A DNA stretch of 64,000 nucleotides from assembly GCA_021815405.1 (NCBI GenBank), contig JAKAGV010000011.1, forward strand, positions 62,001 through 126,000. Reading direction: 5' to 3'. The notes under the pieces were generated by a model. It was not told where the DNA came from. It saw only the letters and a list, made by a program, of their open reading frames with translations, and ran no database searches. Shown piece after piece: positions 20,199 to 24,715 of the stretch. Position 1 is the stretch's first letter, and the number at the start of each line of letters is the position of its first letter. Made by a program: the position numbers and the translations under genes. The stretch is from Bacteroidota bacterium (GTDB taxonomy: Bacteria; Bacteroidota; Ignavibacteria; Ignavibacteriales; Ignavibacteriaceae).

Positions 20199-22280
20199 AT
20201 GCGAAATGCTAATAAATTAATCAATGAAAAGAGTCCATACCTTCTGCAGCATGCATATAATCCTGTAGATTGGTATCCCTGGTGCGAAGAAGCTTTTGAA
20301 AAGGCAAGGAAAGAAGATAAACCTATCTTCCTTTCTATCGGATATTCAACTTGCCATTGGTGTCATATTATGGAGAAAGAATCATTCGAAGATGAAGAAG
20401 TTGCAAAGTTAATGAATGAAACATTTGTTTCGATTAAGGTTGATAGGGAAGAGCGCCCGGATATTGATGGTATTTATATGACCATCTGCCAAATGATGAC
20501 CGGCAGCGGCGGGTGGCCTTTGACAATTATAATGACTCCGGATAAAAAGCCTTTTTTTGCAGGAACATATTTCCCAAAACAAAGCCGTTTCGGAAGAATT
20601 GGGATGCTTGAACTAATTCAGCGCATAATAGAATTTTGGATTTCAAGACGCGAAGAAATCTTCAGTTCAGCAGATGAGATTTTATCAACTCTTAAACGAT
20701 CAACTAATAATAATGTTGGTGACAAAGTAGATGATAATATTCTTGATAAGGCATTCGGCGCTTTTCTTAACCGATTCGATGAAGTATTCGGAGGTTTCGG
20801 CATTGCACCCAAATTTCCAACTCCCCACAATCTTCTTTTCCTTTTACGATACTGGAAAAGGAAAAAAGATAACCGTGCTTTATGGATGGTGGAAAAGACG
20901 TTAGAGCAAATGCGTATCGGCGGAATCTATGATCAAGTCGGATATGGTTTTCACCGGTATTCAACTGATCGAGAATGGCTCGTACCTCATTTCGAAAAGA
21001 TGCTTTATGATCAAGCTTTACTAATTACTGCTTATATTGAAACTTATCAGGCAACTAAAAAAAATCTTTATAAAGATACTGCTGAAGAAATAATTGAATA
21101 TGTCCTGCGCGATATGACTTCGCCGGAAGGCGGCTTTTATTCTGCAGAGGATGCTGACAGCGAAGGCGAGGAAGGGAAGTTTTATCTTTGGCGTAAAGAT
21201 GAAATCAAATCTATTCTTGGGGATGAGGCTGAATTGTTTGTTAAAATTTTTAACATAACAGATGATGGAAATTATGATGACCATGCATTAAGCGAAAAAA
21301 CCGGCGCTAATATTCTTCATATGAACAAAAGCATAAGTGAAGTTGCAAAAGAGCTAAGTCTGAAATCTGATGAATTGACTTCACTAATGAATTCAGCAAG
21401 GGAGAAATTATTTAATTTAAGAGATAAGCGGATTCATCCGTTTAAAGATGATAAGACTTTAACCGATTGGAATGGACTTATGATTTCTGCTCTTGCGAAG
21501 GCTTCTCAAGTATTCGTTCGAACTGATTACCTTGCTGCCGCAGAAAAATCAATGAATTTTATACTTTCAGAAATGATTGATGAGGGCGGATTGCTGCTGC
21601 ATCGTTATAGACAAGGTGAAGCTTCTATTCCCGGCAATATCGACGACTATGCTTTTATTATTGCCGCCTTAATTGATCTTTACGAAGCTTCTTTTAAAAC
21701 AAAATATTTAAAGGAAGCTGTCAGTCTTAATTTAGAATTGATTAAACATTTTTGGGATGAAAGGGACGGCGGATTCTTTTTTACCGGTGACGAAAGCGAG
21801 CAGTTGATAGTTCGTCGTAAAGAAATTTTTGACGGTGCAATACCATCGGGAAATTCAGTTGCTTTACTAAATTTAATTCGTCTGGGAAGAATTGCATCAA
21901 ATTCTGAATATGAGAATAAAGCCGAGATGATTGGAAAACTAATCTCTAATACAATTCAAGATTCACCTTTAGCGTTTGGTTATTCGCTTTGCGCGCTTAA
22001 TTTTACCTTCGGTCCGTCAAATGAAATTGTTATATCTTGCGGTAACCGGGAAGAAGCAAATGTGTATATTAAGAAATTAAATGAGTTTTATTTTCCCAAT
22101 AAAATTCTCATCCTAAATTCTGAAAAAGATGAAGTAATAAAAACTATTGCTCCTTTTACTGCAAATCAAAAACAAGTTGGAAATAAAGTTACGGCTTATG
22201 TATGCAGAAATTATGTCTGCAATTTACCTTTAAATTCGCTTGAAGATTTTGAGAGACTTCTTGAAAATATTTGTAGATAA
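20199..22280 (+). CDS. YyaL-family thioredoxin-domain protein (DUF255)
   Basis: A 693-residue member of the YyaL/SPATA20 family. The N-terminal DUF255 thioredoxin-like domain begins [21 protein letters not shown] and has C52-HW-C55 in [15 protein letters not shown]. The rest (about 200-690) is an alpha/alpha barrel like N-acylglucosamine 2-epimerase and glycoside hydrolases, with [15 protein letters not shown] and [12 protein letters not shown]. The function is unknown despite wide conservation. Cytoplasmic, with no signal peptide. Length is normal. Confidence 0.9.
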
Positions 22281-22367
22281 TATGCAAAGTAAAATGTAAA
22301 TTAGCCGAGCATTAATTTAACTTTAATGAGTGGTTTTGTATACGGATAATTAGAAAGGGACATTCTT

Positions 22368-23087
22368 ATTCAGGACAATAAATTAATACGGTCTTTAATT
22401 CAAAATGTTAAAGCAGGGAACAATTCTTCATTCGAACAGCTTTATCAAATTTATGCCGGAAGGATATATGCGCTTTGCCTGAGATTACTCGCTGATAAAG
22501 ACCTTGCCGATGACGTAACAAAATCAGCTTTCTTGTCCGCACTTAAAAATATAGTACATCTTAGAATGGACATTACATTTGGTTCATGGCTATGCGGTAT
22601 CACGGTATATTTGTGCCTTGATACTCTGCGTCAGAATGGAACTTCCTCTGATAAAATTGATGGGAAAAAATTAAAAAGCCTTAATCTAAGCGCGTTTGAG
22701 TTTGAGATTGTATCGCTTCCGCTAAAGGAGCGCTTATCGTTTGTTCTTCATGACCTCGAAAAATATACCGATGATGAAACCTCAGAATTGTTAATGATGA
22801 AGTCTAAGGAAATGAATGATTATTTGCAGCACGCGTATACCCTGTTAAAAACTGCCAACAATTCTCTAAGCCAGGTAACACCTTTGCAAGAAAGAATAAA
22901 TTCTTTGCCTAATCAAATTATTCCCGGAAACGAAATTTGGAAAAAAATTTCTTCCGAAATACAAAAAGAAAAGGCAAACACTACCATACATGAAAACGAT
23001 GATGATGCTAATTTAGAAGACGGAACTAAAAAAGATAAACAGGAACGAGAAAGAAAATTCAACATATTCGGCTGGAAGAAAAAATAA
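22368..23087 (+). CDS. ECF-like sigma-70 protein with degenerate region 4 and a tail; probable AUU start
   Basis: From 22368 the frame reads IQDNKLIRSLIQNVKAGNNS, then FEQLYQIYAGRIYALCLRL and DKDLADDVTKSAFLSALKN, a clear sigma region 2. Residues about 110-167 resemble region 4 (LPLKERLSFVLHDLEKYTDDETSELL) but lack a good helix-turn-helix. A tail (about 168-239) with LPNQIIPGNEIWKKI resembles the segment after the zinc finger of some anti-sigma factors. No ATG, GTG or TTG occurs in frame between the stop at 22347-22349 and TTG 22533, which would cut region 2. ATT 22368 has AAAGGGA 7 bp upstream. An ATG at 22326 in the same frame is cut off by that stop, so a nonsense mutation is the alternative. 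A regulator or an inactive relic. Confidence 0.6.
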   Translation: MQDNKLIRSLIQNVKAGNNSSFEQLYQIYAGRIYALCLRLLADKDLADDVTKSAFLSALKNIVHLRMDITFGSWLCGITVYLCLDTLRQNGTSSDKIDGKKLKSLNLSAFEFEIVSLPLKERLSFVLHDLEKYTDDETSELLMMKSKEMNDYLQHAYTLLKTANNSLSQVTPLQERINSLPNQIIPGNEIWKKISSEIQKEKANTTIHENDDDANLEDGTKKDKQERERKFNIFGWKKK

Positions 23088-23216: not shown

Positions 23217-24629
23217 CTATCGTTTGGGCTTATACATGTGAGTACTCTGACCGAAAAATACTTCAGCAGCTTCCATAACAGTTTCCGAAAGTGTTGGATG
23301 AGGATGAATGCTCAGCTTCAGATCAGTTACGTTAGCACCCATTTCAATCGCAAGAACTCCTTCGGCAATAAGCTCACCGGCGCCGGGACCGCAAATTCCT
23401 ACTCCAAGAATTCGCTGAGTATCAGGATCAATAATTAATTTAGTAACACCGTCGCTGCGGTCAAGGGTGGTTGCTCTGCCAGAAGCACCCCAAGGAAACT
23501 TTGCTACTTCGAATTTTATATTTTGTTCTTTGGCTTTTGTTTCTGTTAAGCCTGCCCAGGCAATTTCAGGATCTGTAAAAACAACTGCTGGAATAGCAAG
23601 CGGCTCGAAAGCAACTTTATGCCCTGCAATTGCTTCCACTGCTACTCTTCCTTCATGCGATGCTTTATGTGCAAGCATTGGCTCACCAGCAATATCTCCG
23701 ATCGCATAAATGTTCGAATCATTGGTCTGTAATTGCTTATTAACTTCAATCCAGCCTCTTGCATTTGTTTTTACCTTTGTGTTCTCCAATCCTAATCCAC
23801 TTGCGTTTGGCTTTCTTCCAATTGACATTAAAACGTATTCATATACTTGTTCCGTAGCTTTGCCGTCGCTGTCCTGTATATTTACGCTGATCCCATCCTT
23901 CACTTCTTTTATTGAAAGAACCTTAGAGTTAATCATTATCTTATCAAATTTTTTTTCAACTCTTTTGGCAAGGTATGATACTAAATCTCTGTCCGCACCA
24001 GGAAGCAGTCCAGGCATCATTTCAACAACCGAAACTTTAGTGCCGAGTGCATTGTATACCGAACCTAATTCAAGTCCGATGTAGCCACCTCCGATTACAA
24101 GCAGACTTTTGGGAATTTCAGGCAGGTCAAGTGCAGTTGTTGAATTTAGGATTCTTTTGCTATCAATATTTAGTGAAGGAATAGTTGAGATGACAGAACC
24201 TGTAGCGATTATAGCCTTCTCAAACTTATGCTCTTCAATTCCACCTTCAAATTTTTCTATCTTTAAAGTTGAAGAATTTACGAAAGTTGCTTTTCCACGA
24301 ATGTAATTTATCTTGCGTTGCTTAGAAAGAATACCGAGACCTCCTGTTAGCTTGTTTACAACGCCGTTCTTCCAATCTCTTAATTTATTTAAATCGATTT
24401 TAGGCTTGGAGAATTCAATTCCCCAATTCTTTGCATCTTCTGCTTCATTAATAAGTTTTGCAACATGAAGCAGGGCTTTGGAAGGAATGCATCCACGGTA
24501 AAGGCAAACACCGCCGGGATTTTTTTCCTTATCAATTAATGTAACTTCCATTCCAAGGTCAGCGGCAAGAAATGCAGCGGCATATCCGCCTGGTCCTCCA
24601 CCGATAACTGTAAGTTTCTGATTGCTCAT
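23217..24629 (-). CDS. lpdA: Dihydrolipoyl dehydrogenase (E3)
   Basis: A 470-residue flavoprotein that reoxidises the lipoyl groups of the PDH complex with NAD+. FAD motif VIGGGPGGYAAAF, redox pair C42-x4-C47 in GGVCLYRGCIPSK, NAD motif VIGGGYIGLELGSVY, YAIGDIAGEPMLAHKA, and catalytic His in HPHPTLSE. I chose ATG 24629 (MSNQKLTV), which has GGAG upstream; a longer start at 24677 would be TTG. Third gene of the minus-strand aceE-aceF-lpdA operon; a repeat-like 104-bp gap separates it from aceF. Confidence 0.95.
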   Translation of the reverse strand: MSNQKLTVIGGGPGGYAAAFLAADLGMEVTLIDKEKNPGGVCLYRGCIPSKALLHVAKLINEAEDAKNWGIEFSKPKIDLNKLRDWKNGVVNKLTGGLGILSKQRKINYIRGKATFVNSSTLKIEKFEGGIEEHKFEKAIIATGSVISTIPSLNIDSKRILNSTTALDLPEIPKSLLVIGGGYIGLELGSVYNALGTKVSVVEMMPGLLPGADRDLVSYLAKRVEKKFDKIMINSKVLSIKEVKDGISVNIQDSDGKATEQVYEYVLMSIGRKPNASGLGLENTKVKTNARGWIEVNKQLQTNDSNIYAIGDIAGEPMLAHKASHEGRVAVEAIAGHKVAFEPLAIPAVVFTDPEIAWAGLTETKAKEQNIKFEVAKFPWGASGRATTLDRSDGVTKLIIDPDTQRILGVGICGPGAGELIAEGVLAIEMGANVTDLKLSIHPHPTLSETVMEAAEVFFGQSTHMYKPKR

Positions 24630-24652
24630 ATTTCTCCAAAGATTTAAATTAA

Positions 24653-24715
24653 GCATAGCGCATAGTGTATAGAGCAAAGTGAAATAATTATAAGAAAAAA
24701 CTTATAGCGCTATGC
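24653..24715. repeat. Inverted-repeat spacer between aceF and lpdA
   Basis: GCATAGCGC (24653-24661) pairs with GCGCTATGC (24707-24715). Related words (AGAGCAA, GCGCAT) occur on both arms out to 24730, so this looks like a degenerate GCATAGCGC-type intergenic repeat. In the message it could form a hairpin between the two operon genes and tune lpdA levels. Confidence 0.45.

Follow-up and report, generated by a model that had tools for sequence, protein, structure and literature searches.

An ECF sigma factor gene that almost certainly begins at a rare near-cognate codon, in a family where CTG recurs at the same start position

The closest precedent for the gene analyzed here is sigR of Streptomyces, an ECF sigma factor gene that starts at GTC and is repressed by IF3 (PMC5472188). 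Both are ECF sigma factor genes with an extended Shine-Dalgarno sequence (SD), a non-canonical start that is kept within the genus, and a start that gene callers miss (PMC5472188); in contrast to sigR, our gene carries CTT-ATT (CTG in its relatives), belongs to an unrelated lineage, and has no adjacent anti-sigma gene. Another set of precedents, namely infC, pcnB (AUU), and ccpN (AUA) and cvfC1 (AUU) of S. aureus, also show AUH starts on genes that are regulatory or expressed at a low level, and the S. aureus pair has extended SDs and reaches about 10-30% of AUG expression (PMC13009471). None of these encodes a sigma factor, however, and the AUU described below is confined to one species, its relatives having CUG. 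A CUG start in E. coli gives 0.86% of AUG (PMC11497404), and a literature search turned up no further bacterial sigma factor with a CTG start. The present locus brings in another ECF sigma lineage, the second and one remote from Streptomyces, whose start codon appears to be kept poor.

The sigma frame was open from 22350 to 23087, its full 245 codons intact, and contained not a single ATG, GTG, or TTG between the in-frame TAA at 22347-22349 and TTG 22533, its first canonical codon, which falls within sigma region 2 (Table 1). Among the 47 long open frames of the window (the whole 64-kb stretch of DNA that was analyzed), this was the sole case of a missing canonical start; two more frames had a late first start, one from a gene whose signal peptide has a normal ATG, the other an ORF cut by the window edge. 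The landmarks reported by the initial annotation were all located correctly: ATG 22326 with its TAA after seven codons, the frame open from 22350, ATT 22368-22370, AAAGGGA at 22354-22360 with a gap of 7 nucleotides, and TTG 22533. So was its observation that region 2 coding starts before any usual start, as PF04542 begins at 22440, upstream of TTG 22533. Entry by frameshift from a canonical start upstream was considered and rejected: between positions -75 and +9 relative to the start column (22365, where ortholog starts align), none of the three frames offers a canonical start leading into the sigma gene, and frameshift entry is therefore ruled out for that interval.

Table 1. Features of the sigma factor locus, in window coordinates
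Feature	Coordinates	Strand	Remarks
DUF255/thioredoxin-like gene, upstream neighbor	20199..22280	+	PF03190; syntenic
Promoter-like TAGATA-N17-TAAATTAG	22274..22304	+	Fixed spacing kept upstream of orthologs (alignment); overlaps stop codon of upstream gene
Seven-codon ATG..TAA mini-ORF, in frame	22326..22349	+	Probably not functional: peptide unconserved, no SD, missing in nearest ortholog G007
Shine-Dalgarno UAGAAAGGGA	22351..22360	+	-9.3 kcal/mol with genus 16S tail CCUCCUUUCU; strongest of 31 rows (duplex energy)
CTT, codon at ancestral start column	22365..22367	+	CTG in closest relatives
ATT, most likely initiation codon in window genome	22368..22370	+	Aligned SD spacing 6; AUU favored over CUU by published codon efficiencies (PMC12350097)
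ECF sigma factor gene	22368..23087	+	239 aa if ATT is the start
Sigma-70 region 2	22440..22640	+	PF04542, 38.3 bits (cut-off 24), E 1.1e-9
Sigma-70 region 4	22710..22838	+	PF08281, 16.3 bits, under cut-off 25.7 in window protein; 32.8 and 41.9 bits in orthologs
Conserved LP..I.P...IWK.I motif after region 4	22896..22964	+	Alignment; precedes membrane helix in long orthologs
Conserved basic tail KFNIFGWKKK	23055..23084	+	Stands where long orthologs have a TM helix and a FecR-like domain
Dihydrolipoyl dehydrogenase-like gene (lpdA), convergent downstream neighbor	23217..24677	-	PF07992/PF02852; syntenic

Comparison with the nearest ortholog (G007; 59% protein identity) revealed where coding constraint begins. 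Over codons 2-31, the two genes matched at 27/30, 27/30, and 17/30 of codon positions 1, 2, and 3, respectively, whereas the 60 nucleotides upstream of the start column showed no periodic pattern (7, 11, and 9 of 20); the coding start is therefore placed near the column, and the open region before TTG 22533 is not due to chance. The sigma gene almost certainly begins without ATG, GTG, or TTG, at a rare near-cognate codon. This bears out the earlier proposal of a near-cognate start on a regulator gene overlooked by gene callers: automatic callers would miss such a start, cutting off region 2. A decaying pseudogene, or one translated only from TTG 22533, would fit with the missing canonical start, with a region 4 under the Pfam cut-off, and with orthologs going undetected in 6/13 genus genomes at E 1e-25; we regard this as very improbable given the intact frame, the identity to G007, the concentration of conservation at the first two codon positions before TTG, and the syntenic orthologs that likewise have no canonical start.

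Two further explanations involve the mini-ORF. The initial annotation had allowed for a nonsense mutation in a longer leader, with ATG 22326 as the former start, and an in-frame ATG at -39 followed by a stop was indeed also present in G002 and G010. Yet the stops fall at differing places, the peptides are unrelated, no SD precedes them, G007 and G004 have no such ATG, and conserved coding is absent before the column in the orthologs, which together make a longer leader extremely hard to credit. Near-cognate initiation that depends on reinitiation after the short upstream ORF (translational coupling) would draw on the occurrence of the mini-ORF at -39 in 3/5 genomes of the CTG clade; with the mini-ORF missing in the other two and no SD before it, such coupling is highly unlikely.

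The start column itself was traced through 97 relatives and then 80 genomes of the same GTDB family, which yielded 30 full orthologs as well as shorter paralogs; eleven of the latter had readable starts, all of them ATG. (A single-protein scan of named genomes recovered one close relative only, JAJYIL010000098.1.) Ortholog N termini aligned well on (x)xQDNK.IRSL, and the column read CTG in 6, CTT in 1, TTG in 8, GTG in 6, and ATG in 7 of the full orthologs, with an ATG two codons earlier in 2. CTG was found in four of the six other genus members (G007, G002, G010, and G004), the remaining two having TTG, and, from two other genera, in G039 and G025. All six CTG genomes were devoid of canonical in-frame codons in the stretch from the last stop to the conserved block. 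In the four CTG orthologs of the genus, the first ATG was at codon 29, where a gene caller might begin them and lose the N terminus. The locus suggests that automatic annotation shortens CTG-started regulators unnoticed. A clean ATG instead of ATT in close orthologs, named earlier as the finding that would speak against a near-cognate start, was sought and seen in 0/6 of the genus members.

The window sequence had CTT at the column and then ATT 22368, and was the only aligned ortholog with ATT in that place: the near-cognate start is kept among orthologs, AUU itself is not. In a maximum-likelihood tree, the window sequence was sister to G007 (CTG; support 100/99) and enclosed by a five-genome clade of CTG and CTT (support 93/87). 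Given this nesting inside a CTG clade, the simplest origin of the window CTT is mutation from CTG, and the best reading of the alignment and tree is that the ancestor of these five genus members would have started at CUG, lost as CUU in the window lineage.

Where initiation now occurs was assessed from the SD and the two candidate codons. SD duplexes were computed with the 16S 3′ end from two genus members, as the assembly of the window genome contains no 16S. Aligned SD spacing was 3 to CTT 22365 and 0 to ATT 22362, in addition to the value for ATT 22368 in Table 1; where a real SD is present in the family, the spacing lies anywhere between about 1 and 8 and is therefore no judge between AUU and CUU. 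AUU 22368 is the most likely start because AUU mispairs with the initiator anticodon at one position and CUU at two, and because, of the two, only AUU ranks in the top seven start codons in E. coli measurements (PMC12350097). A strong SD precedes this codon. The AUU start put forward in the initial annotation stands to that extent, but the conserved column lies one codon upstream, at CTT 22365. Initiation might still take place at this ancestral column, either at CUU or at a true CUG whose T is an assembly or sequencing error. The orthologs start exactly there, the AGG-N6-start spacing to the column equals that of G007 (CTG) and of the AGAGG-N6-AUC of infC, and one assembly or read error at 22367 could have turned the CTG of the relatives into CTT. 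We nevertheless consider this unlikely, if well worth keeping in view, since CUU is outside the seven strongest E. coli initiators (PMC12350097) and carries the additional mispair, and the assembly is of high quality (31 contigs, 99.98% complete).

Family-wide, SD duplex medians were -1.3 for ATG members (mostly without an SD) versus -6.8 for CTG members (strong). Codon and SD thus trade off, so that net output is unreadable from the codon alone, and the gap in net initiation may be smaller than the codons would imply.

Our favored reading, to which we assign a probability of roughly 0.65, is that of a functional orphan ECF sigma factor with a near-cognate start and a low-level product. An ancestral CUG would have mutated to CUU in the window lineage, and initiation would have shifted one codon downstream to AUU 22368, helped by the strong SD. 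With a mispaired initiator tRNA and complexes that IF3 would reject, protein levels would be low; by this account the cell probably makes the sigma protein in small amounts only, and the low level may hold an unrestrained sigma factor in check.

In the window protein, region 2 (residues 31-97) and region 4 (residues 121-163 of 245) are joined by a short linker, and Pfam identified no further domain. A sequence profile aligned to Bacillus SigW over both sigma regions; this was the best solved-structure match of the sigma part (PDB 5wuq, E 3.4e-26; crystallized with its own anti-sigma RsiW), a likeness of sequence. The window protein and its genus orthologs are short forms (about 237-277 aa) with a basic tail; the window protein has no TM helix before its end at 23087 and is not a sigma/anti-sigma hybrid. 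Elsewhere in the family, about 18 ECF sigma factors were fusions that also carry a TM helix and a FecR/PupR-like domain (e.g., L012:1501-3060), several of them at the same syntenic locus. These long orthologs (about 520 aa) have their membrane helix near residues 255-275, and their C-terminal domain matched no Pfam family and was recognized by fold only. An AlphaFold model of one of them (mean pLDDT 81.8, pTM 0.48) matched SigW over residues 5-168 (Z 15.6), the PupR cell-surface signaling domain over residues 306-432 (Z 15.1, rmsd 2.5 over 124 residues), and the anti-sigma BDI_1681 (Z 14.1). On the strength of this model, the long orthologs look like sigma/anti-sigma hybrids of the kind described for IutY of Pseudomonas putida, with which they share the sigma domain, TM helix, and FecR-like domain; the window protein, by contrast, is without the TM and FecR-like part (PMC5411451). 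One long hybrid, in G108 (L045, reverse strand near 1152-1165), was broken by a frameshift in a run of A residues, probably through misassembly.

Start codon and domain content varied together. CTG/CTT starts occurred in 7/12 short forms versus 0/18 long forms with the FecR-like domain (Fisher p 4e-4, kinship ignored), and one genus holds both, with CTG in the short G025 and ATG in the long G049 and G114. IutY without its anti-sigma part is active without its signal (PMC5411451), and it is therefore reasonable that poor starts may compensate for lost restraint. It is a tentative and rather doubtful extension of this idea that the fused FecR-like anti-sigma was lost several times, that CUG/AUU starts arose in those lineages, and that translational throttling replaced post-translational restraint. 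The co-occurrence of CTG starts and anti-sigma domain loss suggests a testable explanation for the cell's tolerance of a sigma factor without restraint.

Upstream, the promoter-like element TAGAWA-N17-TAAWTTWG was kept at fixed spacing before orthologs in several genera. A pattern search found it elsewhere in genus genomes at background frequency only; an autoregulated regulon was therefore rejected, and none can be claimed. The leader RNA (22308-22430) folded no better than shuffles (z 0.67).

The gene order SIMPL, DUF255, sigma, lpdA was kept in most of 16 loci, and the neighboring genes served as a control. ATG was the start in 31/32 neighbors versus 3/16 sigma genes at these loci (nearest-start rule; Fisher p 4e-8, with kinship ignored and both sets sharing genomes). 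The wider interest of the locus lies in this family-wide avoidance of ATG at the sigma start, plus its link to the lost fused anti-sigma domain. No anti-sigma gene was found between the sigma gene and the convergent lpdA, where there is no room left for one.

Within the window's genome, 13/15 genes with sigma-70 region 2 had a canonical start. The comparison with infC drawn in the initial annotation proved apt, in that infC of the same genome starts at AUC (TTAGAGAGG-TTGCTA-AUC GCT CAA). An infC start at AUC, AUU, or AUA behind a similar SD was common to nearly all of 30 inspected relatives, and across the order nearly every genome inspected had AUC (sometimes AUU/AUA) for infC, usually behind AGAGG-N6 (L133-L136, L085-L114). 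A second ECF sigma gene without a canonical start was noted in the same genome, on contig C14:18136-18699 (L153:1501-2064), with AUC immediately following a stop; the G004 ortholog (L154; 68% identical) has an AUU start and likewise no canonical alternative. Downstream of the C14 gene lies an ATG-started gene with an N terminus that, judged by eye, is like that of a zinc-finger anti-sigma factor, and this layout of a sigma gene with a putative zinc-finger anti-sigma gene resembles sigR-rsrA of Streptomyces (PMC5472188).
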